NCBI RefSeq assembly: GCF_007483665.1
Contig: NZ_VIQO01000001.1
Span: 496,001-560,000 of the forward strand
DNA length: 64,000 nucleotides
Origin: Catellatospora sichuanensis
GTDB taxonomy: Bacteria > Actinomycetota > Actinomycetes > Mycobacteriales > Micromonosporaceae
Reading direction: 5' to 3'
Shown here: positions 2,153-63,061 of the stretch, one piece after another
Position numbering within the stretch: the first letter of the stretch is position 1
Layout: each line of letters opens with the position of its first letter
Translations under genes and position numbers: made by a program
Notes under the pieces: model-generated
Seen by the model: the letters and a program-made list of their open reading frames with translations, nothing else
What the model was told of the DNA's origin: nothing
Database searches by the model: none

Positions 2153-2206
2153 CGACGGCGTGCTCGAATCGGGACGCTTAAGCGTCCTGATTCGAGCACG
2201 CCGTCG
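2153..2206. repeat. 54-bp near-perfect palindrome
   Basis: Two 27-base arms (2153-2179 and 2180-2206) are complementary except at one position and meet with no spacer. The centre is GACGCTTAAGCGTC. It lies between the end of the phosphatase gene at 2287 and the start of dinB, both read leftwards, so it could end transcription of the former. There is no T-tract. Read outward, both arms spell IRARRR, which suggests an inverted duplication. Confidence 0.85.
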
Positions 2207-2286
2207 CGGACGGTTCGCGCTGGCGCTGGATCGGCACCGGGCCCTCGCCGAGCTGCGGGCGCGGGCGGCCGTCGCTACGGAACGGT

Positions 2287-3432
2287 TCAGGGGCGGTACA
2301 CCAGCAGTGGGATGCGCATTTCGGGTTCGGTGAGGGAGCCGTGCATGGCGATCAGGCGGGCGACCGAGGGCGGGTCGGTGGCCGTGGCCAGGACCGCCCA
2401 GTCGTCGCGGCAGACCACGACCACGTCGCCGAGGCGGGCCGCGTGGCGCTCGCCCATGGGTCCGTACCAGCCCGTGGCGATCGCCTCGTCGCGGGTGCCG
2501 ATCCAGGCCGCGTGCCCGGCCCGCGCCTGCCAGGCGGCGAGCACGTCCGCGGTCGCGCCGGGCGCGGTGTGCAGGTAGCGCACCCGTGGTTCGCCGGTGA
2601 CCACGCGCACCCCCGCTGACAGCGCCGGGTCGGCGTGGGCGTCGATGCGGTGGTCGGCGGGCACGTCGAGCTGACCGTGATCGGCGGTGACCAGCAGCGC
2701 GGCGTCCTCGGGCAGGCCGCCGACGAGCCGGGCCAGCAGGTTGTCCACCTCGGCGGCGGCCGCGGCCCACTCGGCCGAGGTGAGGCCGTGCTCGTGGCCT
2801 GCCTTGTCCAGGTGCGGGTGGTAGCCGTGGACCAGGGCACGCCCCGGGGCCTCCTTCAGCGCCGTGAGCATGCCGGTGGCGAGTTCGTCGACGTCGACCG
2901 CGGGCACGTAACGGGCACCCGCGCTGGTGGCCGTGGTCAGGCCGCTGCCGGCGTACTCGGGGCGGTTCACCACCGTGGTGTCGATCCCGGCGGCAGCCGC
3001 GGCGGCGTACAGCGGCGGCACCGGCACCCACTGCCGCGGTGGCGGATCGTCGGCCCACTGGGTGTGGTTGAGCACCCGGTCGGCTCCCGGCACGATGGTG
3101 TTGAACGCCAGCACACCGTGCGCGCCCGGCAGCGCGCCGGTGGCGAGGCTGACCAGGCTGGTCGGGGTGGTCGACGGGAAACCGCAGGTGGTCGACAGCG
3201 CCAGGCCGAGCTCGCCGCGCAGGGTCGCCGCGAGCACCGGCGCGACCGGGGCCATCGCGGGCAGCTGGTGATGGCCCATCCCGTCGACGAGCAGCACCGC
3301 GATGCGGCGTACACCGTCGAGGCGGGCGGCCAGACCCAGCCGGTCGGGCAGACCCGCCGCGCCGAGCGCGGCCAGCGCGCCGGGCAGCACGTCGGCGAGC
3401 GTGCCCTCGTCGTAGTTCGGTGGGACGAACAC
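2287..3432 (-). CDS. Alkaline phosphatase superfamily protein (type I phosphodiesterase/nucleotide pyrophosphatase)
   Basis: This is a 381-residue metal-dependent hydrolase of the alkaline phosphatase superfamily. Its metal ligands and nucleophile are visible in order: VLLVDGMG (Asp), FPSTTPTSL (the Thr nucleophile motif), HPHLDKAGHEHG (Asp and His) and TADHG (Asp-His). There is no signal peptide, so it is probably cytoplasmic and cleaves phosphodiester or pyrophosphate bonds of a small molecule; the substrate is unknown. GTG at 3432 is chosen because GGGAGG lies 7 bases before it. The methyltransferase gene ends only 17 bases upstream, so the two form an operon. Confidence 0.9.
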   Translation of the reverse strand: MFVPPNYDEGTLADVLPGALAALGAAGLPDRLGLAARLDGVRRIAVLLVDGMGHHQLPAMAPVAPVLAATLRGELGLALSTTCGFPSTTPTSLVSLATGALPGAHGVLAFNTIVPGADRVLNHTQWADDPPPRQWVPVPPLYAAAAAAGIDTTVVNRPEYAGSGLTTATSAGARYVPAVDVDELATGMLTALKEAPGRALVHGYHPHLDKAGHEHGLTSAEWAAAAAEVDNLLARLVGGLPEDAALLVTADHGQLDVPADHRIDAHADPALSAGVRVVTGEPRVRYLHTAPGATADVLAAWQARAGHAAWIGTRDEAIATGWYGPMGERHAARLGDVVVVCRDDWAVLATATDPPSVARLIAMHGSLTEPEMRIPLLVYRP

Positions 3433-3449
3433 GGCGGCCTCCCGGCGGG

Positions 3450-4268
3450 TCAGTGGTCGGCGTGGCCGCGGCGGCGGGCCAGCAGGTGCAGCTGGGTCGC
3501 CACGTCCCGGTACGGCGGCACGGCCGACGCGGCCAGCTCGAAGGCCAGCAGCGCCTCCGGGTCGGCGTCGGCGACGACACCGGGCACCAGGTCGGCGATC
3601 ACACGCACCCCGTGCGCCTGCTCGACGTGCAGCCCGGCCTCGGCCAGCAGCGCCTCCGCGCCGATGAGGTCGAACCGGCGCCGCACCGTGTCCCGCCCGG
3701 TGGCCCTGGCCTGCACCTCTCCGCTGGTGGCTCGTGTCGAAGGCCCGCCCGGACGGCGGGCCTCCGCGGACTCCCCACCAGCGTCCAGCAGCGCGGCCGC
3801 AGCCTGCCACTGCCCGGCGAGCGCGCGGGACAGCACGGCGGCGGCCCGGTTGGCGACCAGGATGCTGGCCGCGCCGCCCGGCCGCAGCGCGTCGTGCAGC
3901 GCCTGCGCGACCGCGTCGGGATCGTCGACGAACTCGAACACGGCATGGCACAGCACCAGGTCGGCCGCGGCCGGCGGAACGAGGTCGCCGAGCGAGTCTG
4001 CGTCGCCCTGCAGCGCGCGCACCCGTTCGGCCACACCCGCGTCGGTGGCCCGGCGCAGCAGTGACGCCAGCGCGTCGGGGCTGGGATCGACGACGGTCAC
4101 GGTGTGCCCGGCCTCGGCCAACGGCACGGCGAACCCGCCCGTGCCTCCGCCGACGTCGACGACACTGAGCGGGCGACCGTCCTGTCCGGCCAGCTCACCG
4201 CGCAGCACCGACCAGATCACGGCGGTACGGGGTCCCGCAATGCGGGCTTGCGCCACAGTTCGCTCCAC
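3450..4268 (-). CDS. SAM-dependent class I methyltransferase
   Basis: The protein has 272 residues with a Rossmann fold. SAM motif I is VVDVGGGTGGFAVPLA at about residues 36-51. Motif II is the Asp of TVTVVDPSP, and a motif III/IV region reads ADLVLCHAVFEFVDDPD. The later LRPGGAASILVANR is the usual post-strand 5 segment of this superfamily. The region around residues 155-185 is an Arg/Gly-rich insertion. The substrate cannot be inferred; relatives act on small molecules, quinones or tRNA. It is the first gene of an apparent two-gene operon with the phosphatase-like protein 17 bases downstream. Confidence 0.88.
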   Translation of the reverse strand: MERTVAQARIAGPRTAVIWSVLRGELAGQDGRPLSVVDVGGGTGGFAVPLAEAGHTVTVVDPSPDALASLLRRATDAGVAERVRALQGDADSLGDLVPPAAADLVLCHAVFEFVDDPDAVAQALHDALRPGGAASILVANRAAAVLSRALAGQWQAAAALLDAGGESAEARRPGGPSTRATSGEVQARATGRDTVRRRFDLIGAEALLAEAGLHVEQAHGVRVIADLVPGVVADADPEALLAFELAASAVPPYRDVATQLHLLARRRGHADH

Positions 4269-4351
4269 GTCGCCGAGCCTAGCGGCCGCCGGTGGGCGGG
4301 CGCCGGGGCACGCCGTCCAGACGGGCCACCGAGCCGAGCCACCGGCGGAGG

Positions 4352-5077
4352 TCAGCTGTCGCCACGTAACCTGCCCTCGACCGGGCCGCGTTCGATCACC
4401 AGCTTCGCACCGAACTGCTCCATCAGCTGGGCCGTCTCCTCGTCGCTGAGGTCGGCGCGCATCTGCACGGCGCAGGCGTATCCGTCGACGGCCAACGAGA
4501 ACTTCAGCGAGGCTGCGGTCGGCAGGAACCTTCGCTCGCTCAGCTCGACGACCACCCGCTCCAGCTCGACCCGCGAGTGCGGGCAGGTCACCAGGCGGTA
4601 GGGCTTGCCCTTCACGTACTTCTTGACGCCTTCGACGACGCCGGGCAGCCCGTTGCCCTCGTGCACGCCGAGCACGACGGTGCCCTTCGCGTCGATCCCG
4701 GTGCCGACGAACGTCTCCCAGTGACCGCGGATGTACTCGTCGAGGCTGGCCGGCTCACCCGCCACCACGACCCGGACCACACTGCCCCGGGGCAGGCTGG
4801 TGCCGCCGGGCGGGTCGGTCACCGCGACGACGCCGCGCTCGAGCAGCAGCCCCGGCTCGTACTTGACCAGGGGCACCAGACCGGCCTTGCCGAACTCCTT
4901 GTCCAGCAGCCCGATGGCGCTGTCCACCACCTGCGGCACCCGGGTCGTGACGACCACGGCGTCGGCCGAGGGCTCCGGCACGTCCGCGGGCGGCTGGTTG
5001 CGCGCGGCGCACCCGGCGACCGCACCGGCGAGCACGAGCGCGGTGACCCGCGCCGGCCAGCTCCGCTGTCCGCTCAT
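4352..5077 (-). CDS. Putative lipoprotein with a PASTA-like domain
   Basis: The protein has 241 residues. It starts with a basic n-region, a hydrophobic stretch and the lipobox VAGC at about residues 19-22, so it should be exported and lipid-anchored. Residues of about 47-105 (from VPQVVDSAIGLLDKEF to RGSVVRVVV) look like one PASTA repeat, the fold used by Stk kinases and penicillin-binding proteins to sense muropeptides. The C-terminal half is unrecognised. ATG at 5077 has AAAGGG seven bases upstream. It is read alone between the protease and methyltransferase genes. The PASTA kinase at 26.7 kb is not adjacent. Function is unknown. Confidence 0.75.
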   Translation of the reverse strand: MSGQRSWPARVTALVLAGAVAGCAARNQPPADVPEPSADAVVVTTRVPQVVDSAIGLLDKEFGKAGLVPLVKYEPGLLLERGVVAVTDPPGGTSLPRGSVVRVVVAGEPASLDEYIRGHWETFVGTGIDAKGTVVLGVHEGNGLPGVVEGVKKYVKGKPYRLVTCPHSRVELERVVVELSERRFLPTAASLKFSLAVDGYACAVQMRADLSDEETAQLMEQFGAKLVIERGPVEGRLRGDS

Positions 5078-5112
5078 GTCCAGCCCTTTCGTACGTGGCG
5101 TGCCGCCCGGCC

Positions 5113-6414: not shown

Positions 6415-6525
6415 CTGGTGTCCGTTCGTCCCAGGGGTGATGGGTCGAGCGAACGCTATCGGCAGATTCTCGTCCACACAAGACGTACGGTCGTCCTTTA
6501 TGGACCACGAGTAATCGGCGCGCTA

Positions 6526-9889: not shown

Positions 9890-9923
9890 ACCCCCAGCTC
9901 ACCCCCCGCACCAGGGTCCACGT

Positions 9924-9982
9924 TGATCATGAACTTATGGACGTGTTCGACGGCGTGTCGTCACCCCCAACTTCATGATCGA
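9924..9982 (-). repeat. Type A inverted repeat, copy 1
   Basis: The left arm TGATCATGAACTTATGG is intact and the right arm (about 9966-9982) is degraded. Its inner part is the reverse complement of copy 2, sharing about 36 bases including GACACGCCGTCGA. Confidence 0.85.
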
Positions 9983-10148
9983 CTTATCGTGCGGCCCCGC
10001 TGGTCGACCAGCCACCACCCGAGGGTCGAACTGTCGGCCGCCTCGGACCCGGCCCGCCCGCCCGAATCGGCGCGTTACCAACGGGTCGCGGCGCGTCACC
10101 GCGGATCGGCGCCGGCAGCCCGGACCAGCCACACGCCGCCCCAGGGGC

Positions 10149-10218
10149 TCATGATCCGTTTTTGTGGACGCTGGGTGCTGCTATGGCGACGTCCAGCGTC
10201 CACAAAAACGGATCATGA
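10149..10218. repeat. Type B inverted repeat with perfect 26-bp arms
   Basis: Arms 10149-10174 and 10193-10218 are perfectly complementary around an 18-base spacer. The arm begins TCATGATCCGTTTTTGTGG. Its A/T run is unusual for this region. No second copy was seen in the window. Confidence 0.9.
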
Positions 10219-10296
10219 CCGGAGGCCAGGCACCCGAAGCCGCCATCCCGCCAGGTAACCCGGCTCCCACCGACGTCCTCTGACCGACCAGTCCGT

Positions 10297-10353
10297 TGAC
10301 CATGAAGTTATGGCAGCGACACGCCGTCGAACACGTCCATAAGTTCATGATCA
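10297..10353 (+). repeat. Type A inverted repeat, copy 2
   Basis: The 57-bp element has arms TGACCATGAAGTTATGG and CCATAAGTTCATGATCA around a core with GACACGCCGTCGA. It lies 20 bases beyond the stop of imuB. Confidence 0.9.
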
Positions 10354-10372
10354 ACGCGGTAGGAGGGGGTGG

Positions 10373-13311: not shown

Positions 13312-13641
13312 GTCGGCGGCTCCCTCCATCGTCGGCCTATACCCGGCCGAACCCCAGGGCTGTCACTCGGACCCGGATCGTTCCGGGCCGGGCGACCGCC
13401 CGCTTTCCGAGCCACGGAGGAAGAACGTGGTGTAGCGCTTGCCGGCCGGGCGTGGAGCTTCCCCACGCCACGCCCGGACCGGCTCGCCGGTCGGGCGGCC
13501 ATCCGCTGCCCGGGGGTCGATGGGCAGCGGATGGCACCCGCCTGGTCGGCCGCCGGAGCCGCGAATCTCCGGTGACCTGGGTCGGTGCCGCGAACACCGG
13601 CCCGGGGTTCGCGGTTGCGAACCGCTTCCCCCGAGACATGA
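13312..13641. other. Possible long leader between LexA boxes and the HEPN gene
   Basis: Short frames exist on both strands but have mixed third positions and no family features. The stretch contains a perfect 13-bp hairpin (13499-13534) and other weaker foldings. If transcription starts at the LexA-controlled promoter near 13675, this would be a structured 5' leader of the mutasome operon. Confidence 0.45.
13499..13534. other. Perfect 13-bp hairpin in the presumed mutasome leader
   Basis: CCATCCGCTGCCC (13499-13511) pairs with 13522-13534 across a ten-base loop. There is no following T-run on either strand, so it may be a leader structure rather than a terminator. Confidence 0.55.
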
Positions 13642-15843: not shown

Positions 15844-15901
15844 CCGCGCCGCACCGCACCGCCGCAGCCCGGGTACGGCGGCGCGGCCGCCCTTGATCAT
15901 C

Positions 15902-15962
15902 CGACTTGCCCGGCACCTGTGCGTATCTTGACCCCGCATTCGCCCGATTGCCTGGCAAGTCG
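15902..15962. repeat. Type G inverted repeat
   Basis: The 14-base arms CGACTTGCCCGGCA and TGCCTGGCAAGTCG (one mismatch) enclose 33 bases. The element lies in a 243-base gap between convergent genes; nothing else was recognised in the gap. Confidence 0.7.
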
Positions 15963-16086
15963 AGTGACCTTGGTGCACGACCGCACCGCGACGCCGTCAC
16001 CCGATGCCGCGATGCCGCAGGGGCGACGCCTCAGCGCGGGCCTTCCGGCCACGGTCTCCGTGCCGCGGCGGAAGGGAGGCCGGCGG

Positions 16087-18937: not shown

Positions 18938-20212
18938 ATGACCGAACCGGATGACGACGGACACCACTGGTACTACGACCATCCCCGGACCCTGCTGGGA
19001 TGCCTGCAACGCGGGCATGGGCGCGGCGTGCTCAAGGCACGCCGCGATCGACGCGACGCAAGCGTGACCGAGGCCGTGTTCGCCTGCATCGCGCGCGACC
19101 ACCGCTGGGACCGCCAGGTCGACGACTGCGGCGACTATCTCGCCCGCCTGGTCCGCGACCTGGACATGGATCTCACACCGATCGTCGATCTCTTCTGGAC
19201 AGCCGACCGGGACCTCGACCTCGACGACGAGACCTCCTACGACGAGGGCTCCTTCCACGTCACGCTCAGGGTGCTGGAGACGCTCGGTCACGCGGGTGAC
19301 CGCCGGGCGGTGGCCGCGCTGCGGCAGGCCGTTGCCGAGGCCGACCACTGGATGGCGGTGCTCGACGAGATCACCGGTCGGTGGCCCAGGCAGAGTTGGG
19401 ACGACCTCGACACCGTGGTGCTCGCCCGGTTGACCCCGCAGGACGAGGACGACGTGCTGGGGTTCCGGGACCCCTGGACCACCTGGGCGCAGCGGCATCC
19501 CCGGATCCGCGACCTGACCCGGCGGACGGCCGAACGCAGCGCACGCCCGCCGACGCCCGCCCCACGCCCCAACGATGTGCTGGTCGCGGTGCTGACCGAC
19601 CCGCTGGCGTCGCGCGGCGAGCGGTCGGCTGCGGTGCGGGAGCTGGCCCGATCCGCGCCGGAGCCGCGGTTGCTGGATCTGGCCGAGGACCTTTTCGGGA
19701 CGCCGCTGCTGCACCGTGCGGTCTCCCGGCTGGGCCCGGCCGCGATCGGCCACGCCAGGGTGTGGGCCCAGGACGGGCGGATGCACCGGTTCGGCGCGGG
19801 CCTGCTCGCCGCGCACGGCACTGAGCAGGACATCCCTCGGCTGATCGAAGCCTGGGACAGGTTGTGGGAGGGCGACGAGTGGTGCGGGTTCGACACCCTG
19901 GCCGACGGCTTCGCCCGCTTCGGTGCTGTCGCGGCCGATGCCGTGCCGCGGTTGTGGGCGATGTGGCAGTGGACTCCGCATTCGTACGAGCGGACGGCCT
20001 GCCTGCGGGCGCTGCTGGCGGTCGACCCCCTGGCCGCCGAGGTTCCGCTGGTGCAGGGCCTGTTCGACAGCGAGAGCGGTGTGCGCGAGTTCGCCGCTGC
20101 CCACGTCCACCTCGACGAACTCACCAGGACGGTGCTGGACGGCCTTGTCCACGATCCGATCGAGACACCCGAGGTCCGGCAACTCGCGGCGACGCGGCTC
20201 GCAGCGCGATGA
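18938..20212 (+). CDS. HEAT-like repeat hypothetical protein
   Basis: The protein has 424 residues, is acidic, and lacks a signal peptide or membrane segment. Its long succession of alpha-helical pairs (for example FHVTLRVLETLGHAGDRRAVAALRQAVAEAD and RSAAVRELARSAPEPRLLDLAEDLFG) has the pattern of HEAT or Armadillo repeats, which usually bind protein partners. WTPHSYERTACLRALLAVD is another helix pair near the end. No catalytic motif was seen. The gene is divergent from the short GntR regulator, and a 22-base-arm inverted repeat starts in its stop codon. The call is by pattern only; function is unknown. Confidence 0.7.
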   Translation: MTEPDDDGHHWYYDHPRTLLGCLQRGHGRGVLKARRDRRDASVTEAVFACIARDHRWDRQVDDCGDYLARLVRDLDMDLTPIVDLFWTADRDLDLDDETSYDEGSFHVTLRVLETLGHAGDRRAVAALRQAVAEADHWMAVLDEITGRWPRQSWDDLDTVVLARLTPQDEDDVLGFRDPWTTWAQRHPRIRDLTRRTAERSARPPTPAPRPNDVLVAVLTDPLASRGERSAAVRELARSAPEPRLLDLAEDLFGTPLLHRAVSRLGPAAIGHARVWAQDGRMHRFGAGLLAAHGTEQDIPRLIEAWDRLWEGDEWCGFDTLADGFARFGAVAADAVPRLWAMWQWTPHSYERTACLRALLAVDPLAAEVPLVQGLFDSESGVREFAAAHVHLDELTRTVLDGLVHDPIETPEVRQLAATRLAAR

Positions 20213-20271
20213 TCGCCGTCGCGTGTCGGAAAGTGAGGCCGGAGCGCGTTTTCCGACACGAGACAGCGATC
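20211..20271. repeat. Type E inverted repeat overlapping a stop codon
   Basis: Arms 20211-20232 (GATCGCCGTCGCGTGTCGGA...) and 20250-20271 are complementary at 20 of 22 positions around a 17-base spacer. The left arm begins at the last two bases of the HEAT-like gene's TGA. Confidence 0.8.
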
Positions 20272-23338: not shown

Positions 23339-24943
23339 GTGCTCCCCCACGCCGCCTCCCGTGCCGCCGTCGCCCTGGGCTGCGTCTCGGGCGTGCTGCT
23401 GGCCGCCTCGGCGTACCTGGCGGGCGCGCTGCCCGGCGGCGACCCCGGACCCGGGCTGCGGCTGGGCGGGTTCGGTGCGGTGCCCGGGAGTTTCCTGCTG
23501 GGGCTGGCGTGCTGGCTGGTCGGTATGGCCGGCTGGACGGCCGCATGGTGGCGGCTGGGCCGGGCCGGGGATCTGATCACCGGCAGGTCGGGACCTGACC
23601 TGGCCGAGGGCGCGCGGGGCGCCGGCCCGGCGGGCCGCACGGGCACGTCGGGTCGACCCGGCACGGTGGGCCGGTGGGCCGGCCCGGCGTGGCGGCTGCT
23701 GGCGATCGGGGCGGCGTGGGCCGCGCCGCTGCTGGTCGCGCCGCCGCTGGGCAGCCGCGACGCTTACGCGTACGCCTGCCAGGGCTGGCTGTGGCGGGCG
23801 GGCCTGGACCCGTACACGATGGGTGTCGCCGACGGCGGCTGTCCTTGGACCTCGGCCGTCCCGGAACTCTGGTGGCACACCCCGACCCCCTACGGCCCCG
23901 TCGCGGTGCTGCTGACCGCCGCCGTGACCGGCCTCGGCGGCCTGATCGGCGCGCTGGCAGGCCTGCGCATGCTCACCCTCGCCGCACTGGCCCTGCTCGC
24001 CCTCGCCCTACCGCCCCTGGCCCGCGCCTGCGGCGTCCCCGTGCCCGCCGCCTACTGGCTCGCCCTGCTCACCCCCCTGACCGCCGTCCATGCCCTCTCC
24101 GCTCTCCACAACGACGCCCTGGTCGCCGCCCTCACCGTCACCGCCCTCGCCCTGACCCTGACCACCCGAGATCGCGACGATCTTGCGCGAACTGTCGCCC
24201 CTTTGCCCGGTTCGGGCGTGTCGTCCCCACAGGCCGCGCAAGATCGTCCCCGCGCGGGCGGGGCGGGGGCGTGGTGGGGGGCGGTTGGGGTGGGGGGCTT
24301 GGTGGCGGGGGCGGTGGGGGTCAAGGTGACGGCGGTGGTGGTGGTGCCGTTCGTGCTGGTGTTGCTGGGGCGGCGGTGGTGGGCGGGGGCGGTTGCGGGG
24401 GTTGCCGCGTTCGCTGGGGTGAGTGTGGTGAGCGGGCTGGGCCTGGGGTGGGTTTCGGCGCTGCGCGGGACCGGGGAGCTGGTGCAGTGGAGTTCGCCGC
24501 CGACGGCGGTCGGTATGGCTGCGGGCTATGTGTTGCGGCTGGTCGGGCGGGGCGAGTGGGTCGATGCGGCGGTGGCCGTGGGGCGGGCGTCGGGGCTGGT
24601 GGCGCTGGTGGCGGTCGGGGTGTGGGGGTTGGTGCACGCGTGGCGGCGGCGGGGTGACGCCGGGGCGGTGGTGCGGGCGTGCGGGTGGGTGATGGCCGCG
24701 ACGGCGCTGCTCGGGCCGGTGTTCTATCCGTGGTACGCGCTGGCGCCGCTGGCCGTGCTCGCGGCCGCGGAGACGGATCCGCGACGGCGGAGGTGGCTGG
24801 CTGTGGCGGCCGCGGTCTGCGCGTTCCTGACGCTGCCCAACGGGCTCGGGGTGCCGGTGCTGACCAAGGCGGTCGGCGCGTTCGCGGTCACGGCCGCGCT
24901 GATCGTCGCCGCCGTCCGGTCCAGACCCAGAGCGACAGCGTGA
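23339..24943 (+). CDS. Polyprenyl-phosphomannose-dependent mannosyltransferase (MptA/MptB-like, GT-C fold)
   Basis: The protein is about 534 residues with ten or more membrane helices. GT-C features of the Mpt group are visible: GSRDAYAYACQGWLWRAGLDPYTMG with the acidic loop after the first helices, TPTPYGPVAVLL, HALSALHNDALVAAL and FYPWYALAPLAVL. Such enzymes extend the alpha-1,6-mannan core of lipomannan outside the membrane. It corresponds by position to Rv2174 (MptA). A 73-base inverted repeat (24176-24248) is inserted in frame, adding about 25 residues to a loop. Before it codons end mostly in C, after it mostly in G. The last 56 bases overlap the convergent cyclase gene. Confidence 0.88.
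   Translation: MLPHAASRAAVALGCVSGVLLAASAYLAGALPGGDPGPGLRLGGFGAVPGSFLLGLACWLVGMAGWTAAWWRLGRAGDLITGRSGPDLAEGARGAGPAGRTGTSGRPGTVGRWAGPAWRLLAIGAAWAAPLLVAPPLGSRDAYAYACQGWLWRAGLDPYTMGVADGGCPWTSAVPELWWHTPTPYGPVAVLLTAAVTGLGGLIGALAGLRMLTLAALALLALALPPLARACGVPVPAAYWLALLTPLTAVHALSALHNDALVAALTVTALALTLTTRDRDDLARTVAPLPGSGVSSPQAAQDRPRAGGAGAWWGAVGVGGLVAGAVGVKVTAVVVVPFVLVLLGRRWWAGAVAGVAAFAGVSVVSGLGLGWVSALRGTGELVQWSSPPTAVGMAAGYVLRLVGRGEWVDAAVAVGRASGLVALVAVGVWGLVHAWRRRGDAGAVVRACGWVMAATALLGPVFYPWYALAPLAVLAAAETDPRRRRWLAVAAAVCAFLTLPNGLGVPVLTKAVGAFAVTAALIVAAVRSRPRATA
24176..24248. repeat. Type F inverted repeat inside the mannosyltransferase gene
   Basis: Perfect 14-base arms GACGATCTTGCGCG (24176-24189) and CGCGCAAGATCGTC (24235-24248) enclose 45 bases; after two mismatches CTGT and ACAG extend the pairing. 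The reading frame is kept through it. Codon third positions switch from C to G across it. Confidence 0.8.
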
Positions 24944-30341: not shown

Positions 30342-30371
30342 ACGGGCCGGTGCCGTATCGCACCGGCCCGT
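30342..30371. terminator. Bidirectional intrinsic terminator between bfr and vapC
   Basis: ACGGGCCGGTGC (30342-30353) pairs with 30360-30371 over 12 bp with a six-base loop. It lies between convergent genes. Confidence 0.8.
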
Positions 30372-32953: not shown

Positions 32954-32980
32954 CGCACCGGCCCCGTCGGGGCCGGTGCG
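32954..32980. terminator. Strong terminator between a membrane protein gene and aroG
   Basis: CGCACCGGCCCC (32954-32965) pairs perfectly with 32969-32980 over 12 bp with a GTC loop. A related G/C hairpin with long G and C runs lies at about 32838-32910. The genes on either side are convergent. Confidence 0.75.
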
Positions 32981-35426: not shown

Positions 35427-35528
35427 GGCCGTCTCCTTGCGTGTGGCTCCGAGGGCGGAGCTACGGGGCCGGGGGTTCGGCTCAAACTCCCTGTTCTGAG
35501 CCTAAAGCGACAGTCCGAACAGCAGGAA

Positions 35529-35558
35529 CCCCCGCAGGCGTGAATGAGCCTGCGGGGG
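35529..35558. terminator. Intrinsic terminator after proC
   Basis: CCCCCGCAGGC (35529-35539) pairs with 35548-35558 over 11 bp with an 8-base loop. proC ends at 35581 on the - strand, so this is just downstream of it. Confidence 0.8.
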
Positions 35559-35580
35559 TGACGGGATCACGCGTCCGTGG

Positions 35581-36387: not shown

Positions 36388-36418
36388 CCGTGCTCCCCTC
36401 CAGCAAGCGAAAGCGGGT

Positions 36419-36475
36419 TGATCATGAAGTTATGGACGCGACACACCGTCGACCCGTGCCATAAGTTCATGATCA
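36419..36475 (+). repeat. Type A inverted repeat, copy 3
   Basis: The 57-bp element has arms TGATCATGAAGTTATGG (36419-36435) and CCATAAGTTCATGATCA (36459-36475), with core GACACACCGTCGA. It lies in the gap between the start of proC and the end of pfkA, both read leftwards. Confidence 0.93.
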
Positions 36476-36494
36476 ACCCGCGCAAGGGTCTGGC

Positions 36495-38321: not shown

Positions 38322-38372
38322 GTCTTCCCCTGTCGTGAGGATCTCTGCTGTGCGCCCGGCGCCGCGGACCCC

Positions 38373-38378
38373 TACCCT
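38373..38378 (+). promoter_or_regulatory. -10 element of a leaderless promoter before the DUF1028 gene
   Basis: TACCCT fits TANNNT and ends seven bases before the ATG at 38386. Confidence 0.5.
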
Positions 38379-38385
38379 GAGCGCC

Positions 38386-39213
38386 ATGACGTTCTCGATC
38401 GTCGCGCGTTCGGCCGACGGGCTCGCACACGGGGTCGCCGTAGCCAGCAAATTCCTGGCCGTCGGGGCTGTCGTGCCCGCCGCGGAGGCCGCCCTCGGCG
38501 CGCTGGCCACCCAGTCCTACGCCAACCTGGCCTACCGGCCGCAGGGGCTGGCCCTGCTGCGCACCGGCACCGCGGCGCCCGACGTGGTGGCCGGGCTGAC
38601 CGCCGCCGACCCGGGACGCGACTCCCGCCAGCTCGGCGTCGTGGGCCGCAGCGGCGACGGCGCGACGTTCACCGGGGCGGACTGCCACGGCTGGGCCGGC
38701 GGCCGCACCGGCGACGGGTACGCGATCCAGGGCAACATCCTCGCCGGACCGGAGGTGGTCGCCGCGATGGAGACCGCCTGGCTGTCCTCGGAACCGTCGG
38801 CGGCGCTGGCGCGGCGGCTGCTCGCGGCGCTGCGCGCGGGCGACGGCGCGGGCGGCGACAAGCGCGGGCGGCAGAGCGCGGCGCTGTTCGTCGTCGCCCC
38901 CGGGCAGGGCTACGGCGGCACCGGCGACGTCGTGGTGGACCTGCGCGTGGACGACCACCCCGACCCGTGCGCCGAGCTGGCCCGCCTGCTCGACGTCCAC
39001 ACGCTGCTGTTCGACAAGCCCGACCCGGCCACCCTGCTGCCCCTGCGCGACGCCGTCGCCGACGAGGTCCGCGCCCTGCTGGCCGCCCGCGGCCACACCC
39101 GGTCCGATCTCGACGCCGCCCTGTCCGACTGGGCCGGCATCGAGAACCTCGAGGAGCGCATGGTCCCCGGCCACATCGACCCTCTGGTGCTAACCCACCT
39201 CCGCACCTCCTAA
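38386..39213 (+). CDS. DUF1028 family protein (Ntn hydrolase-like)
   Basis: The protein has about 275 residues. It begins MTFSIVARSADGLAHGVAVASKFLAVGAVVPAA, typical of DUF1028. AATQSYANL-like segment ALATQSYANLAYRPQGL, then YAIQGNILAGPEVVAAME and QSAALFVVAPGQGYGG are further conserved blocks. The fold is Ntn-hydrolase-like; activity is unproven. The late segment VDDHPDPCAELARLLDVH is common in the family. The gene is divergent from the exoribonuclease and convergent with the APH-like gene, with a type D inverted repeat in the gap. Confidence 0.9.
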   Translation: MTFSIVARSADGLAHGVAVASKFLAVGAVVPAAEAALGALATQSYANLAYRPQGLALLRTGTAAPDVVAGLTAADPGRDSRQLGVVGRSGDGATFTGADCHGWAGGRTGDGYAIQGNILAGPEVVAAMETAWLSSEPSAALARRLLAALRAGDGAGGDKRGRQSAALFVVAPGQGYGGTGDVVVDLRVDDHPDPCAELARLLDVHTLLFDKPDPATLLPLRDAVADEVRALLAARGHTRSDLDAALSDWAGIENLEERMVPGHIDPLVLTHLRTS

Positions 39214-39233
39214 CCCCGCACCCCCGCCCTCCC

Positions 39234-39303
39234 CGGGTGCAGTTTCGGGGAAAGTGCAGGAATGGGGTCGATGATTCGTGCACTTTCCCCGAAACTGCAC
39301 CCG
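39234..39303. repeat. Type D inverted repeat, copy 1 (perfect 25-bp arms)
   Basis: The arm begins CGGGTGCAGTTTCGGGG (39234 on) and pairs perfectly with 39279-39303 over 25 bp with a 20-base spacer. The + strand changes from C-rich to G-rich across it. Confidence 0.93.
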
Positions 39304-39322
39304 CCTGGCGTGGGCGGCGGTG

Positions 39323-39352
39323 GTGGGTGGGTGGGTGGGTGGGTGGGTGGGC
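39323..39352 (+). repeat. GGGT tandem run (G-quadruplex motif)
   Basis: Six or more GGGT units in a row end at the stop codon of the APH-like gene. Runs of four or more GGG with one-base loops are the classic quadruplex motif. Confidence 0.85.
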
Positions 39353-40233
39353 TAGTCGTTCAGGAGGGCGAATCGGGCCTGGTCGAGGCGGGTGCGCCAG
39401 TGTTCGGCGGGGCTGTCGGGGGGTAGCGCCGCCAGGGCGCGGGCGCACTCGTCGGCCTCCATCGCCCAGCGGAAGCGCAGCAGGGTGTCGAGGCTGCCCT
39501 CGATCTCGGCGACCGGCACCGGGCCCGCGTCCTCGTACGCCGACAGCAACTCGTGCGCGTGCGCCGGGCCGCCCGCGTGCCGGACGGCCGAGGCGACGTC
39601 GTACATCAGCGGCCCGGCCAGTGCCCGACCCCAGCTGACCAGCCCGATCCGGCCCGTTGCGGGGTCCAGCCGGAACGCCTCCGGGCGCGGGTCGCCGTGC
39701 AGCGGGCCGACCGTGAGCCGGTCGGTGACCTGCAGCTTCGTCAACGCCGTGACCGCGCCGGCGATCGCGGGCCGCAACCAGGCCGCCACGGACAGATACG
39801 ATGCGTCCGGCCGCAGCGGGTGCCAGGCGGGCAGCCCGGAATGCCGGAACCCGGCCAGCCCGCGGTGGGCCGCCCCGAGCCGGTCGCCCCACCACTGCTG
39901 ATCCACCGGGTCCGCGCCGTCGAGCGGGCGGCCGGGCACGAACTCCACGAGTGCGAGCACGTACTCGCCGGCGGGCACGCACAGCGCGCCGTCCGCGGCG
40001 CGCACCGGGGCTCCCGTGTCGAGACCCTGCCGGGCAAGATGTTCGGCCGCGGCCAGCCCCGCCTCGAACCGGGGCCGTTCCAGGCCCGCCACCAGGACCG
40101 CCAGGTACCGCCGGTCACCCACGGCAACCGACCTGGTCGATGTCGTCGGCTCACCGTCCAGCGGAGTGCAGCCGTCCGGCTGAAGGTGCCATGACGTACG
40201 AAGTGTCGTGCGGATCGTATCGTCAGCCAGCAC
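39352..40233 (-). CDS. Aminoglycoside phosphotransferase-like protein with altered metal-binding residues
   Basis: The protein has 293 residues with the APH/choline kinase fold. The catalytic loop reads GPLHGDPRPEAFRL, where the Brenner motif HGD-x4-N has Ala in place of Asn, and the later Asp-Trp motif reads VSWGRA instead of IDW. The His-Gly-Asp itself remains. Loss of both metal ligands suggests a pseudokinase or an unusual enzyme. ATG at 40233 was chosen; its first 30 residues are variable. It ends in the G-quadruplex run and is divergent from the Crp gene. Confidence 0.72.
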   Translation of the reverse strand: MLADDTIRTTLRTSWHLQPDGCTPLDGEPTTSTRSVAVGDRRYLAVLVAGLERPRFEAGLAAAEHLARQGLDTGAPVRAADGALCVPAGEYVLALVEFVPGRPLDGADPVDQQWWGDRLGAAHRGLAGFRHSGLPAWHPLRPDASYLSVAAWLRPAIAGAVTALTKLQVTDRLTVGPLHGDPRPEAFRLDPATGRIGLVSWGRALAGPLMYDVASAVRHAGGPAHAHELLSAYEDAGPVPVAEIEGSLDTLLRFRWAMEADECARALAALPPDSPAEHWRTRLDQARFALLND

Positions 40234-48541: not shown

Positions 48542-48580
48542 TCGGTGTTCAGCCGGAGCGAAGCGGAGGCTGAACACCGA
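48542..48580. terminator. Terminator between convergent genes
   Basis: TCGGTGTTCAGCC (48542-48554) pairs with 48568-48580 over 13 bp with a 13-base loop. It serves the gene ending at 48516 and the one ending at 48609. Confidence 0.8.
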
Positions 48581-51545: not shown

Positions 51546-51575
51546 GCCGCCCAGCATGCCCCACCCCCGCCACGA

Positions 51576-51632
51576 TGATCATGAAGTTATGGCCGCGACA
51601 CGCCGTCGAGCCGTGCCACAAGTTCATGATCA
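51576..51632 (+). repeat. Type A inverted repeat, copy 4
   Basis: The 57-bp element has arms TGATCATGAAGTTATGG (51576-51592) and CCACAAGTTCATGATCA (51616-51632), with core GACACGCCGTCGA. It lies between two genes read leftwards. C-rich + strand on its left becomes G-rich on its right. Confidence 0.93.
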
Positions 51633-51671
51633 CCGCGCCGAAGCGGGTGGATGGGGTGCCGGGTGGTGGGG

Positions 51672-53277: not shown

Positions 53278-53279
53278 GC

Positions 53280-58641: not shown

Positions 58642-58666
58642 GCTGCCTGAGCTGCCCGAGCTGTCC

Positions 58667-58792: not shown

Positions 58793-60271
58793 ATGGGCGA
58801 GAAAGTGCACCAGCACGTCTTCACCCGCGCGGACCGCGCGAGGTACCGGGAGAAGGTCCGCCGGTGCCTGGACGTGTTCGCGCTGATGCTGGGCGAGTCC
58901 CAGTTCGAGTTCGAGCGCCCGCTCACCGGGCTGGAGATCGAGCTCAACCTCGTCGACGAGCAGGGCCTGCCGTCGATGCGCAACGCGGACGTGCTCGCCG
59001 CCATCGCCGACCCGTCGTTCGTGACCGAACTCGGCCAGTTCAACATCGAGATCAACATTCCGCCCCGGGAACTGGCCAAGGGCGGGCTGACCGCGTACGA
59101 GGAGCAGATCCGGGCCAGCCTGAACGCCGCCGAGGACAAGGCGCGCACGGTCGGCGCGCACACCGCCATGATCGGGATTCTGCCCACGCTGCGCCCGGAG
59201 CACCTGACCGGCGAGGCGCTGTCGGCCAACCCCCGCTACGCGCTCATCAACGAGCAGGTGTTCGCCGCCCGCGGCGAGGACCTGCGCATCAGCATCGACG
59301 GGCCGGACCCGCTCACCGTCACCGCCGACACCATCGCGCCGGAGGCCGCCTGCACCAGCGCCCAGCTGCACCTGCAGGTCAGCCCGGCCCAGTTCGGGGC
59401 GTACTGGAACGCCGCCCAGGCCATCGCCGGGGTGCAGCTGGCCATCGCCGCCAACTCGCCCTTCCTGTTCGGGCACGAGCTGTGGCACGAGACCCGCATC
59501 CCCCTGTTCAAACAGGCCACCGACACCCGGCCCGAAGAGATCAAAACCCAGGGGGTACGCCCCCGGGTCTGGTTCGGCGAACGCTGGATCACCTCGGTCT
59601 TCGACCTGTTCGAGGAGAACGTCCGCTACTTCCCCGCGCTGCTGCCGATCAGCACCGAGGACGACCCCGCCGACCAGCTCGCCGGCGGCGAGGTGCCCGA
59701 GCTGACCGAGCTGCGCCTGCACAACGGCACCATCTACCGCTGGAACCGCCCGGTGTACGACGTCTCCGACGGCATGCCGCACGTCCGGGTCGAGAACCGG
59801 GTGCTTCCCGCAGGCCCCACCGTCATCGACATCATGGCCAACGCCGCGTTCTGGTTCGGCCTGGTGCGCACCCTGGCCGAGGGCGGCCTGCCGGTGTGGT
59901 CCCGGATGCCGTTCAAACAGGCCGACGAGAACTTCTACACCGGCGCCCGGCAGGGCATCGGCGCCCACCTTTTCTGGCCTGATCTCGGCTACCTCACCGC
60001 GTACGAGCTGGTGCTGCGGCGCCTGCTGCCGCTGGCGCACCAGGGCCTGGAGAGCTGGGGCGTGGAAGCGCGCGAGCGGGACCGGCTGCTGGGCATCATC
60101 GAGCAGCGCTGCCTGCTCCGCCGCAACGGCGCGACCTGGCAGATCGACACGGTGCACCGCCTGGAACGCGGCGGCATGGAACGCTCCGAAGCCCTACGCG
60201 AGATGCTCCTGCGCTACATGACCCACATGCACGAGAACATCCCCGTGCACGAGTGGCCCCGCGAGGACTGA
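58793..60271 (+). CDS. Glutamate-cysteine ligase family protein (GshA-like)
   Basis: The protein has 492 residues. The fold of the GCS2-type family is suggested by ERPLTGLEIELNLVDEQGLPSMRNADVL, LGQFNIEIN(IPP), then HLQVSPAQFGAYWNAAQAIAG, ANSPFLFGHELW and the end YMTHMHENIPVHEWP. Members of about 490 residues are annotated in Streptomyces as glutamate-cysteine ligase, but most actinomycetes use mycothiol, so the product may be another gamma-glutamyl amide. ATG at 58793 has AGGGGCGG upstream. A type D inverted repeat lies just after the gene. Confidence 0.85.
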   Translation: MGEKVHQHVFTRADRARYREKVRRCLDVFALMLGESQFEFERPLTGLEIELNLVDEQGLPSMRNADVLAAIADPSFVTELGQFNIEINIPPRELAKGGLTAYEEQIRASLNAAEDKARTVGAHTAMIGILPTLRPEHLTGEALSANPRYALINEQVFAARGEDLRISIDGPDPLTVTADTIAPEAACTSAQLHLQVSPAQFGAYWNAAQAIAGVQLAIAANSPFLFGHELWHETRIPLFKQATDTRPEEIKTQGVRPRVWFGERWITSVFDLFEENVRYFPALLPISTEDDPADQLAGGEVPELTELRLHNGTIYRWNRPVYDVSDGMPHVRVENRVLPAGPTVIDIMANAAFWFGLVRTLAEGGLPVWSRMPFKQADENFYTGARQGIGAHLFWPDLGYLTAYELVLRRLLPLAHQGLESWGVEARERDRLLGIIEQRCLLRRNGATWQIDTVHRLERGGMERSEALREMLLRYMTHMHENIPVHEWPRED

Positions 60272-60307
60272 CCCCGTCGGGCGCCGAACGGGCCGCGCCG
60301 CGGCGCC

Positions 60308-60367
60308 GCAGTTTCACGGAAAGTGCACCCATCGCACGGCCGGTTGGCGCATTTTCCCCGAAACCGC
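60308..60367. repeat. Type D inverted repeat, copy 2 (imperfect)
   Basis: GCAGTTTCACGGAAAGTGCA (60308-60327) is matched, imperfectly, by 60346-60367. It shares the arm with the copies at 39234 and 62999. The genes on either side are convergent. Confidence 0.75.
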
Positions 60368-60459
60368 CGTCCGAGCGAGCCCGCGCGCTTCGGTGGGCGG
60401 GCAGGAGGCGCACGATCCGGGTCGGCCGTTCGGGTGGTTCTGGCGGAGTCGGCGCGGTG

Positions 60460-61590
60460 TCAGGCAGTGTCGCCTGACAGCAGCGAGCGCAGGCGGCGGG
60501 CTTGCAGATCCCAGCCCCACTCCTGCTCGACCCAGCCGCGGCCCGCCGCGCCCATCTTGGCCCGCAGCGCCTCGTCGGACAGCAGCTCGACCAGCCGGGC
60601 GGCGAGCGCATCCACGTCCCGGCCGGGCACCACGTATCCGGTCTCGCCGTCCCGCACGGCATCGGGCGCACCCCCGGAGTCGCCGGCGATCACCGGCAGG
60701 CCCACCGCGGAGGCTTCCAGGTAGACGATGCCGAGTCCCTCCACGTCCAGCCCGTGGTTGCGGGTGCGGCACGGCATCGCGAAGACGTCCCCGGCCGCGT
60801 AGTGCATCGGCAGCTCCGCCCACGGCACCGAGCCGGTCAGCACGACGTGGTCGGCCACGTCCAGCTCGCGGGCCATCCGCTGCAGGGTCGGCCGGTACGG
60901 GCCGCCGCTGACCAGCAGCAGAGCCGCGTCCGGGATCGCCCGGCGCACCGCCGGGAGAGCGCGGATCAGCATGTCCTGGCCCTTGCGCGGCACCAGCCGG
61001 GAGACGCACACGATCACCGGGCGGTCGGTCAGCCCGTGTCGGGCCCGCACAGCCGCTCCGTCCACGTCCGGGTGGAACGTCTCCGAGTCGACGCCGGGCG
61101 CCAGCCGCTGCAGGCTGGTCCGCTCCCCCAGCGCCCTGGCCAGCCGCACGCGCTGATATTCGCCGAGGTAGGTGAGCACGTCGTTGCCGTCGGCGATGCG
61201 GCGCAGCGCGCTGCGCGCGCCCGGCAGCGCCGCCCAGCCGATCTCGTGCCCGTGCGTGACGCCCACGGCCCGCCGCACCCCGGCCCGCCTGCGCAGGCCC
61301 TGGGCCAGCAGCCCGAGCGGCGCGGCCGCGCCGAACCAGACCCGGTCACAGCCCTCCGCGCGGGCCAGCTCCGCGACCCGCCGGGCCACCCGCGCTGTGG
61401 GCAGCAGCACCCCGGTCCGGTCCCGGACCACCGGATACGGCTGCTCGGCGTCGAACGCCTTCGGGTCGCGCCAGGTCGAGGCGTAGACGACCAGCTCGCC
61501 GTCGGGCTGGCGGATCGCGAGGTTGTGCAGGAACTGCTGGATGCCCCCGGGGCGGGGCGGGAAGTCGTTGGTCACCAGCAGCGTGCGCAT
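60460..61590 (-). CDS. GT4 glycosyltransferase, PimB'-like mannosyltransferase
   Basis: The protein has 376 residues and a GT-B fold. It starts MRTLLVTNDFPPRPGGIQQFLHNLA (the first Rossmann strand), and VTHGHEIGWA follows. RLVPRKGQDMLIRALP, then EGLGIVYLEASAVGLPVIAGDSGGAPDAV is the conserved donor site (E-x7-E pattern). By position and type it corresponds to Rv2188c (PimB'), which adds the second mannose to phosphatidylinositol mannosides at the inner membrane. ATG at 61590 is the family start. A type C inverted repeat lies upstream. Confidence 0.92.
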   Translation of the reverse strand: MRTLLVTNDFPPRPGGIQQFLHNLAIRQPDGELVVYASTWRDPKAFDAEQPYPVVRDRTGVLLPTARVARRVAELARAEGCDRVWFGAAAPLGLLAQGLRRRAGVRRAVGVTHGHEIGWAALPGARSALRRIADGNDVLTYLGEYQRVRLARALGERTSLQRLAPGVDSETFHPDVDGAAVRARHGLTDRPVIVCVSRLVPRKGQDMLIRALPAVRRAIPDAALLLVSGGPYRPTLQRMARELDVADHVVLTGSVPWAELPMHYAAGDVFAMPCRTRNHGLDVEGLGIVYLEASAVGLPVIAGDSGGAPDAVRDGETGYVVPGRDVDALAARLVELLSDEALRAKMGAAGRGWVEQEWGWDLQARRLRSLLSGDTA

Positions 61591-61641
61591 TCGCGCAGCC
61601 TACCGGCGTCCGATCCCCGCCCGGCAACGCGGAGATCGCGG

Positions 61642-61686
61642 TTTGGTGTCATGATCTGCAGTCCAACCGCAGATCATGACACCAAA
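61642..61686. repeat. Type C inverted repeat with perfect 18-bp arms
   Basis: TTTGGTGTCATGATCTGC (61642-61659) pairs perfectly with 61669-61686 over 18 bp with a nine-base spacer. It contains CATGATC like types A and B. It lies between two genes read leftwards. Confidence 0.9.
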
Positions 61687-61712
61687 AGCCGATCTTGAGC
61701 CGCGCCGCGGGT

Positions 61713-62954
61713 TCAGTGGTCGCGGGCGTAGGCGCGGGCAGCGGCCATGCGTTCCACGGTGGTGGGGTGGCTGCCGAAGAGGGCCTGCTCCCAGGCGGGC
61801 GGGTCCGGGTCGCCGAGGTTGACCAGGGAAAGCCGCCCCTGCATCTGCTCGAAGCCGGCCGGGTCCCCGGTCAGCTCCAGCGCGTGCTCGTCGGCGCGCG
61901 CCTCGATCAGCCGGGACACGTACGCCTGCGCCGGCCCCGCCACCAGCCCGCCCACCGTGGCGATCGCCAGCAGCAGGCCGATCGCACGTGGCTCGGCGAT
62001 CGACTCGACCCCGGCCCGCCGCAGCAGCCAGCCCCACGCCCCGAGCAGGTAGAGGCCGACCACGAAGACGGACGCGCCGAGCGCGCCGATGACGGTGCCG
62101 ATGACCACGTCACCGCGCTTGGCGTGCCCCAGCTCGTGCGCGGCGACGGCGACGACCTCGGACTGCGGGGCCTCCCGCAGCAGCGTGTCGTAGACGACGA
62201 TGCGCCGGGTCGGGCCGATGCCGCTGACGTACGCGTTGAGCGCGGTGGTGCGCCGGGACGCGTCGGCGACGAGCACGTCGCGCACCGGCACCCCGTCCCG
62301 CTGGGCCAGCTCCATGAGTTCGGTGCGCAGCGGCCCGTCGGCCATCGGCGTGAACTTGTTGAAGACCGGCTCGACCAGCACCGGGAACACGAAGCTGAGC
62401 AGCACCACCAGCCCGGCGGCGCCGACCGCGCCGACCGCCCACCACCAGTTCGGCAGCAGCCGGGTCAGGCCGTAGAAGCCGAGCAGGGCGACGGCGCCGA
62501 GCACCGCGGCGACGGCGTACCCCTTGAGCAGGTCGACCGCCCAGCCGCCCCAGTCCTGGGTGGACAGCCCGTAGCGCACCGCCACGGTGTGCCGCCAGGC
62601 CGCGAACGGCAGCGTGATCAGGTCCGCGGCCAGCAGCACCAGCAGCCCGCCGCCGAGTACCTTGGCCAGCCACGGTCCGGGCACCAGCCCCACCAGCCAG
62701 GAGCCCAGCGGGGTCAGCCCCAGCACTAGCGCCACGGCCAGCCCGACCAGCATCGCCGGGTAGGTGATCCAGCGCAGCTCGCCGCGCAGCTGCCGGGCCT
62801 CGGCGACCCGGTCCGCGGGCAGCCCGGCCAGCGCGGCGAGCTGATCGGCCCGCGGCGCGGGCGGCCGATGCCACGGCACCAGCATCGCCACCGCCACCGC
62901 CACCGCAGCACATAGGACGACCAACGCCACCCAGGCCCAGCCCCGCACCGTCAT
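61713..62954 (-). CDS. M48 family (Ste24-like) membrane metalloprotease
   Basis: The protein has 413 residues with seven or so membrane helices. VAVAAHELGHAKRGDV holds the zinc-binding HExxH; the third ligand Glu is in LIEARADEHAL, and NAYVSGIGPTRRIVVYD is the typical block. It should cut membrane proteins or prenylated peptides at the membrane. ATG at 62954 starts a basic segment and the first helix. It lies downstream of the NYN gene with a type D inverted repeat between. Confidence 0.9.
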   Translation of the reverse strand: MTVRGWAWVALVVLCAAVAVAVAMLVPWHRPPAPRADQLAALAGLPADRVAEARQLRGELRWITYPAMLVGLAVALVLGLTPLGSWLVGLVPGPWLAKVLGGGLLVLLAADLITLPFAAWRHTVAVRYGLSTQDWGGWAVDLLKGYAVAAVLGAVALLGFYGLTRLLPNWWWAVGAVGAAGLVVLLSFVFPVLVEPVFNKFTPMADGPLRTELMELAQRDGVPVRDVLVADASRRTTALNAYVSGIGPTRRIVVYDTLLREAPQSEVVAVAAHELGHAKRGDVVIGTVIGALGASVFVVGLYLLGAWGWLLRRAGVESIAEPRAIGLLLAIATVGGLVAGPAQAYVSRLIEARADEHALELTGDPAGFEQMQGRLSLVNLGDPDPPAWEQALFGSHPTTVERMAAARAYARDH

Positions 62955-62998
62955 CGCCCGATCGTACGGCCGCCGGCCTTCGCATCCGGTGGCCCGCC

Positions 62999-63061
62999 GT
63001 GCAGTTTCGGGGCAACTGCACGCTCATCGCGACCGGTTCGTGCGCTTTCCCCGAAACTGCA
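62999..63061. repeat. Type D inverted repeat, copy 3
   Basis: GTGCAGTTTCGGGG (62999-63012) pairs with 63049-63061, with a weaker inner part. It shares the arm AGTTTCGGGG with copies 1 and 2. Confidence 0.85.

Follow-up and report, generated by a model that had tools for sequence, protein, structure and literature searches.

Dispersed palindromic elements of Catellatospora lie at the centre of mirror-image strand asymmetry and are candidate two-way transcription terminators

Repetitive extragenic palindromic sequences (REPs) and bacterial interspersed mosaic elements (BIMEs) are described, in the available parts of two sources, as short, high-copy, intergenic palindromes that lie chiefly behind coding regions, between tandem or convergent genes, fall into many families per genome and are thought to be mobile (PMC2817692, PMC3733652), and REPs are said in the available text of the first to facilitate Rho-dependent termination (PMC2817692). 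In Bacillus subtilis and Escherichia coli some Rho utilization (Rut) peaks have a partner on the opposite strand, next to genes that converge or diverge, and the available part of that report gives their function as unknown (PMC12350095). Here we describe palindromic elements that are like REPs and BIMEs in their dispersal and position, in a 64-kb stretch of Catellatospora sichuanensis DNA (the window; G000:C1:496001-560000 of a 9.45-Mb genome in 65 contigs; 72.5% G+C) and in related genomes. They are longer than REPs (median 65 bp, compared with 20-40 bp in the accessible text of those sources), and both flanks of a typical element are rich in C and poor in G when read toward it, a mirror-image flank bias that the same portions of PMC2817692 and PMC3733652 do not mention for REPs. 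We tentatively propose that these elements may be mobile, strand-symmetric transcription-termination (3'-end) modules.

Palindromes were detected de novo without use of skew, clustered on sequence, and afterwards searched for with profile models; genes were called with a home-made codon-usage caller. Database matches to a protein of the window were headed by Catellatospora species, at 85-94% identity, and a search gave ten further genomes of the genus. The genome of the window (G000) was compared with 0.8 Mb each from two of these relatives, G003 and G007. Over the 2.86 Mb examined in the three genomes the final set comprised 413 copies, which fall into 13 families, although such counts depend on the threshold, matches shorter than 40 bp having been dropped from a 1.26-Mb G000 set and those shorter than 35 bp from the 2.86-Mb set. 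All of the elements named in a preliminary description of the window exist, each belonging to one of the 13 families, and they number 13, since 9924-10353 contains three. That description had reported that the plus strand changes from C-rich to G-rich at the elements, and we confirmed the switch: with 100-bp flanks, skew (G minus C) rose across 12 of the 13, with a mean rise of +0.46 compared with −0.005 in 27 element-free gaps (p=2e-5, or p=2.5e-4 against the element-free tandem gaps alone).

The simplest explanation of such a switch is that gene orientation and C-ending codons produce it on their own. We therefore compared gaps by gene arrangement in 1.26 Mb of G000, again with 100-bp flanks and with one value per gap. 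Convergent gaps without an element did show a small rise, 0.133 (n=41), but those with an element rose by 0.476 (n=73). Tandem gaps rose by 0.460 with an element (n=28) and 0.005 without (n=147) on the plus strand, and by 0.452 (n=42) and 0.051 (n=163) on the minus strand; divergent gaps gave 0.350 (n=13) and 0.017 (n=150). The p values for the four arrangements ranged from 9e-5 to 6e-15, related gaps and the two sides of one gap being statistically non-independent. Equal changes in element-free gaps with the same gene directions, which the preliminary description had named as the outcome that would undo its claim, were thus not found, and the asymmetry belongs to the element rather than to gene direction, as that description had argued. 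The noncoding flanks told the same story. In distance profiles, from which gaps holding more than one element were left out, noncoding flanks up to 75 bp from the element had equal skew on the gene-3' and gene-5' sides (−0.21 to −0.28), whereas element-free gaps were near zero; beyond 75 bp the gene-3' side kept the stronger skew. On the approach side in convergent gaps C averaged about 0.46 and G about 0.27 over the first 100 bp, and the bias faded by 150-200 bp and was gone by 200-300 bp, a reach of about 150 bp each way. With the tandem gaps and the noncoding flanks both against it, gene orientation has next to no probability as the sole source of the switch.

When the scan was reversed and C-to-G switches were ranked by sharpness, the shares within 40 bp of an element were 92%, 90%, 75% and 41% for the 25, 50, 100 and 300 sharpest, respectively, although elements with 40 bp on each side make up 2.1% of the sequence scanned; none of the 100 sharpest G-to-C switches was at an element. 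Among the sharp switches away from recognised elements, a few were degenerate-looking copies by eye or lay in a gap occupied in a sister species, and others were unaccounted for.

The bias extends into coding sequence. At gene 3' ends the skew of codon third positions was −0.62 at 30-50 bp from the element and −0.14 at 250-300 bp, compared with −0.05 to −0.12 at ends that had no element and a gap of at least 60 bp, and the coding shift was smaller on the gene 5' side than on the 3' side. Conversely, gene-end skew predicted the element: among 2270 ends an element followed 94% of those below −0.8, 74% of those at −0.8 to −0.6, and 3-5% of those at −0.1 or above. Genes with a coding score below 30 were left out of the element-free and 5'-side figures, of the 2270 ends and of the four-fold site counts below. 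The noncoding flanks were also rich in a particular word, GGTGGG occurring 209 times, 2.3 times its second-order Markov expectation (92 expected), and CCCACC 15 times. This enrichment beyond trinucleotide make-up is specifically predicted by none of the readings considered here, except that it invites the idea that selection favours G-quadruplexes, as a roadblock, on the strand leaving the element. G-quadruplex motifs were indeed present in 12-20% of the flanks of elements outside called genes and in 0.6-5% of free flanks; however, shuffles that kept composition in 20-nt blocks gave the same motif rate (15-22%). As the motif as such was not enriched over composition-keeping shuffles, we rejected selection for G-quadruplexes as very improbable.

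To follow the elements between species, we used 506 syntenic gaps whose neighbouring genes are orthologous and adjacent in G000, G003 and G007; elements were present in all three genomes in 39 gaps, in one or two in 55, and in none in 412. In a separate pairwise comparison of G000 with each sister, gaps with one element in both genomes held different families in 4 of 27 and 6 of 28 cases. These differences in presence, together with those in copy number between species, suggest that the elements are mobile. Gap sequences looked too divergent between species for empty sites to be placed by eye, and orthologous copies gave six usable pairs for arm covariation, with four compensatory double changes, a small sample of pairs.

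Of 79 comparisons in discordant gaps, 59 showed the more C-biased gene end in the genome that carried the element (p=6e-8, although ends that face each other across a convergent gap are non-independent). By class, the difference was significant for elements found only in G007 and for those shared by G000 and G003 (p=0.02 and 0.01) and was not significant for the 11 ends with an element only in G000 (p=0.18 against G003 and p=0.12 against G007, each taken alone). This last result would be expected if the elements simply landed where a C-to-G switch already existed, neither causing nor accompanying it, and so would the observation that the element-free orthologs of discordant gaps had skews of −0.15 to −0.34 (−0.73 for the pair of ends at a single gap), compared with −0.06 to −0.07 in gaps that were always empty; several gene ends followed by a family F4 copy were likewise skewed already in orthologs that lacked a recognised element, for example C2:217939, where the sisters gave −0.61 and −0.64. 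Such an insertion preference would need a supply of targets, but just 12 of 365 always-empty 3' ends had a mean skew below −0.45, leaving no large pool of them. Moreover, of 31 already-skewed sister sites scored as empty, 7 were gaps of 0-35 bp and some others contained one arm or a decayed copy by eye; fossil bias is, therefore, part of the reason why some element-free sister sites are skewed. The excess of 59 in 79 also argues against a preference for existing switches, as do the substitutions described next, and we consider this explanation quite improbable.

Substitutions were counted at four-fold degenerate sites in the last 39 codons and polarised with G007. On branches where an element was gained (21 gene ends), G>C changes occurred at 22 of 97 sites (0.23) and C>G at 11 of 200, whereas on branches where it was lost (21 ends) G>C had fallen back to the background at 2 of 45 (0.04) and C>G, at 22 of 254, was double that of element-free genes (220/5153; G>C 216/4687, 0.05). 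With an element in all three genomes the counts were 36/205 for G>C and 74/1439 for C>G. Over the last 19 codons, gene ends with an element gave 39/161 and 64/1178, compared with 88/2123 and 92/2414 where none of the three genomes had one. The tracts thus depend on an element being there: G>C is in excess once it has been gained and no longer so once it has been lost. As frequent C biases polarisation by parsimony, we also fitted a three-taxon rate model; where all three genomes carried the element, it gave G>C at about 3-5 times and C>G at 0.6-0.85 times the baseline in codons 1-25. An attempt to settle from these rates whether mutation or selection was responsible, with five baselines, gave an answer that depended on the baseline: for codons 1-25 a one-parameter mutation bias beat selection on three of the five, by 12, 22 and 5 log units, and selection fitted better on the other two, by 3 and 0.2 units, whereas for codons 13-40 selection fitted better on four of the five.

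The positions of the elements point to the ends of genes. Their median distance was 27 bp from a preceding stop codon but 106 bp from a following start, and, among gaps of 30-700 bp, to which the occupancy and hairpin counts were confined, they were present in 158 of 291 convergent but 23 of 354 divergent gaps. Of 133 convergent gaps without an element, 62% held an ordinary hairpin; of the 158 with an element, 23% held one beyond the element itself, although the gap that remained there was somewhat shorter (median 60.5 compared with 77 bp). The element-free convergent orthologs of gaps occupied in a sister had an ordinary hairpin in 18 of 27 cases (gaps of at least 30 bp; 9 shorter ones were set aside), about the rate in never-occupied gaps (25/42). 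Flank skew at these other hairpins was −0.03 (n=76) and −0.06 (n=20), compared with −0.22 at elements (n=185).

The flanks also resemble those of known terminators. A test similar to RhoTermPredict, in our own coding and using the definition in the available part of PMC6407284 (78 nt, C/G above 1.5, a C every 11-13 nt), was passed on both sides in 209 of 360 gaps with an element and in 63 of 1100 element-free gaps given a dummy centre. At elements, C/G exceeded 1.5 on 81% of the gene-3' sides (n=491) and on 66% of the gene-5' sides (n=229), whereas in free gaps the figures were 21% of 860 and 25% of 1340. Flank and palindrome together, at the level of sequence, fit the description of a Rho-dependent terminator, that is, a 78-nt region with C in excess of G and regularly spaced, followed by a hairpin. 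They do not resemble intrinsic terminators, as in the 12 nt behind the element hairpins T made up 0.148 and five or more T occurred in 5.4% of 278.

We propose, accordingly with the reservation of our opening paragraph, that each element is a long palindrome that could form a hairpin in transcripts of either strand, preceded on both strands by a C-rich, G-poor approach of about 100-150 bp on the strand leading in. A polymerase arriving from either side would make a C-rich, G-poor, weakly structured RNA and then meet the hairpin, which is the arrangement by which Rho-dependent terminators are predicted, present twice in opposite orientations; selection on termination would build the tracts, and the polymerase or Rho would presumably respond to them. 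The preliminary description had suggested a site where transcription, replication or repair starts or ends. Among these the evidence favours the ending of transcription most, because the elements follow stop codons, fill about half of convergent gaps and largely exclude ordinary hairpins there, and a repair or mutation process remains its rival.

Several observations weigh against termination. In divergent gaps 42 of 51 noncoding flanks had negative skew, with a mean of −0.23 compared with 0.00 in 516 free flanks; as no gene reads toward the element there, termination would have to act on antisense RNA. The bias was strongest in translated codons, which ribosomes cover, and at 5' coding ends orthologs with and without the element did not differ (31 comparisons). 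Families F8, F10 and F11 were almost unbiased, as was F0 in G007 (−0.06, 34 copies). Stem mismatches in tandem gaps, read on the sense strand, were G.T in 83 cases and A.C in 84, giving no sign of a wobble preference in sense RNA, and the better fit of mutation bias on three baselines belongs here as well. Ordinary hairpins were not excluded from plus-strand tandem gaps (19% of 72 with an element, 22% of 445 without) and were partly excluded from minus-strand ones (16% of 99, 28% of 460). Lastly, the other hairpins had T at 0.210 in the same 12 nt and five or more T in 5.9% of 135, so T-runs do not separate two kinds of terminator. Because hairpin exclusion was clear only in convergent gaps and T-runs were equally rare behind other hairpins, we lowered our confidence in termination from an even balance to somewhat below it.

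A bias of mutation or repair centred on the element would account for several of these points. Breakage, strand exposure or repair synthesis at the palindrome would swap G for C on the leading-in strand on both sides, so that flanks and synonymous codons drift to C with the element and back once it has gone, and termination would not be needed. Symmetry irrespective of gene direction, divergent gaps included, is what this process would give, as are the raised G>C at four-fold sites near elements, the opposite shifts of G>C and C>G in the rate model and the lack of a wobble preference in the stems. Against it, the other hairpins (median arm 17 bp, median loop 5, compared with a loop of 17 for elements) would be the better cruciform formers, yet they were unbiased. 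The better fit of selection on two baselines in codons 1-25 and four in codons 13-40 also speaks against a mutational origin, as does the further reach of the bias on gene-3' than on gene-5' sides. There was, in addition, little in-register complementarity between the flanks past about 12 bp relative to within-flank shuffles, which argues against templated copying. We had considered flank complementarity, from an extended stem or templated copying, as the main signal and rejected it, as the excess was confined to the first 12 bp (z 5.9, then 1.3, 1.8, 2.5 and 0); against swapped partners it reached 40 bp, reflecting matched bias strength on the two sides. On balance we regard a mutational or repair origin as unlikely, though with enough in its favour to be the chief competitor of termination.

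A broader statement, neutral as to cause, is that a mobile palindrome acts as the centre of strand-symmetric, directional G-to-C substitution that reaches some 150 bp either way and takes in synonymous codons of the neighbouring gene ends, and that after its loss the sequence drifts back, leaving fossil skew. We hold this to be possible but doubtful. If it is true, local composition would be a readable and reversible record of element occupancy rather than a trait of the genes, whether it came about by mutation, by repair or by selection.

The 13 families appear to belong essentially to the genus Catellatospora, a soil genus that is not known to be pathogenic. Their models found 17 copies in 117 kb from six Catellatospora loci, with flanks of −0.18 and −0.25 in 16 of the 17, but no copies in 590 kb of Actinoplanes sensu lato and two in 681 kb of Micromonospora, a near-absence that led us to reject an old spread of the families over the whole bacterial family. 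The 0.8 Mb of G007 contained 134 elements, and bias was similar in most families there. Outside the genus, sharp switches were fewer and less one-sided. With the threshold set at 0.7, C-to-G and opposite switches per Mb numbered 34-41 and 0-2.5 in the genus, 11.9 and 3.4 in Actinoplanes sensu lato, and 11.8 and 5.9 in Micromonospora, the last two genera partly at masked N runs; at 0.5 they numbered 117-133 and 34-74 in the genus, 97 and 78 in Actinoplanes, and 50 and 53, and thus no excess, in Micromonospora. The sharpest Micromonospora switch (L128 around 1078, Micromonospora gifhornensis) lay on a palindrome, CGATCTTGCACTTTCGGTCGG..., matched by none of the 13 models. Family F4 (GACGTTGGCCTATCTCATCGA..., for example G000:C1:145786) was present in 18 copies in the 1.26 Mb of G000, one in the 0.8 Mb of G003 and none in the 0.8 Mb of G007, and is probably a recent burst in G000.

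Within the window, skew passed from negative to positive at nine of the 13 elements, and each is given here with its left and right values. The strongest switch, −0.50 to +0.59, was at the F3 element at 24174..24248, flanked by a C-rich, G-poor approach tract at 24074..24173 on the plus strand and its mirror image at 24249..24348 on the minus strand (G-rich on plus). In the convergent gap at 39234..39303 (F2, TGCAGTTTCGGGGAAA...; −0.40 to +0.47) the plus-strand tract at 39134..39233 comprises the end of gene 38350-39213(+) and a short spacer, and the minus-strand tract at 39304..39403, G-rich on plus and containing GGTGGTGGGTGGGTGG, a spacer and the end of gene 39352-40122(−). The second F2 copy, at 60308..60367, was also in a convergent gap (−0.14 to +0.24), and the third, at 63000..63062, lay between two minus-strand genes (−0.29 to +0.18). 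Family F6 (GTTGATCATGAACTTATGG...) contributed four copies between minus-strand genes, at 10294..10355 (−0.27 to +0.48), 36413..36481 (−0.32 to +0.26) and 51574..51634 (−0.34 to +0.34), and at 9922..9983, where skew rose yet was negative on both sides (−0.43 to −0.18), as it did at the F1 element (GATCATCCGACTTGCC...) in the convergent gap at 15895..15967 (−0.33 to −0.12). The F0 copies were at 20209..20271, between plus-strand genes (−0.07 to +0.30), and 61633..61696, between minus-strand genes (0.00 to +0.21). A weak switch, −0.04 to +0.12, marked the F10 element at 2153..2206 between minus-strand genes; this family has a short loop and among the compared genomes was found in G000 only. The sole element without a rise was the F8 copy (ATGATCCGTTTTTGTGGACGCTGG...) at 10149..10218, likewise between minus-strand genes (−0.12 to −0.18).

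The claim that most copies lie between genes read in the same direction held in the window (9 of 13), but in the 1.26 Mb convergent gaps were the commonest single place (of 175 elements, 81 were convergent, 47 and 30 between minus- and plus-strand genes, 13 divergent and 4 within a called gene). The copy said to lie inside a gene, at 24174-24248, does lie in an open frame, 23339-24943(+), but the coding signal of this frame, which had no Pfam match, collapses from about 24149; the parts of G003 and G007 compared likewise have frames of similar length that cross an F3 copy. Short GC-rich hairpins outside the element families were present in gaps at 173-206, 13498-13535, 30342-30371, 32954-32980, 35528-35559 and 48542-48580.

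The genome encodes a 635-aa Rho-like protein (L230). A second, shorter Rho-like protein of 464 aa has an apparent ATPase motif by eye (G000:C10:75349-75588; L258, open reading frame 610-2004 on the minus strand). Matches to the Rho RNA-binding domain numbered two in nine of 11 genomes of the genus and one in G002 and G007, and the second paralogue was rejected as a required partner, as G007 has a single match yet carries its 134 elements, biased in most families. Mobilisation by a REP-associated tyrosine transposase (RAYT) was also rejected: no RAYT flanked by palindromes was found in the genome, whose one Y1_Tnp match had no family palindrome in its 3.4-kb locus. That match (G000:C22:41173-41535, L189) adjoins a TnpB-like gene by eye and looks like an IS200/IS605 insertion sequence. 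Nor were the end tags of REPs above chance in 188 palindromes, with GTAG at 0.074 and CGTC at 0.239 compared with 0.068 and 0.267 at random places.

Dispersed palindromes, the local composition of the strands and the choice among synonymous codons are usually studied separately; the finding ties them together, and under either termination or mutation, analyses of codon usage and skew in such genomes must allow for the elements. If mutation is responsible, a repeat drives a G-to-C bias, for which, in this form, we know of no precedent. If termination is responsible, the elements would be mobile two-way terminators of the Rho type, with loading sites that evolve within coding regions. The Rut pairs of other bacteria, of unknown function, would then gain a candidate role. 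A literature search that targeted skew only in part, and to which subscription journals were largely outside, gave among the matches listed no composition switch tied to palindromic repeats.

As far as the accessible portions of the sources go, the closest described systems are REPs and BIMEs, Rho-dependent terminators with paired Rut sites, and the 3' ends of Streptomyces clavuligerus. Like Rho-dependent terminators, the Catellatospora elements have a region of about 78 nt with C in excess of G, followed by a hairpin (PMC6407284). Streptomyces clavuligerus is likewise a GC-rich actinomycete with 3' ends at hairpins that have no U-tract and with overlapping ends on opposite strands, but its 3' ends come without a described repeat family or skew (PMC8269248). 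Finally, unlike the paired Rut sites of B. subtilis and E. coli (PMC12350095), the pairs in Catellatospora, known here from sequence, are centred on dispersed palindromes, and their tracts come and go with them.

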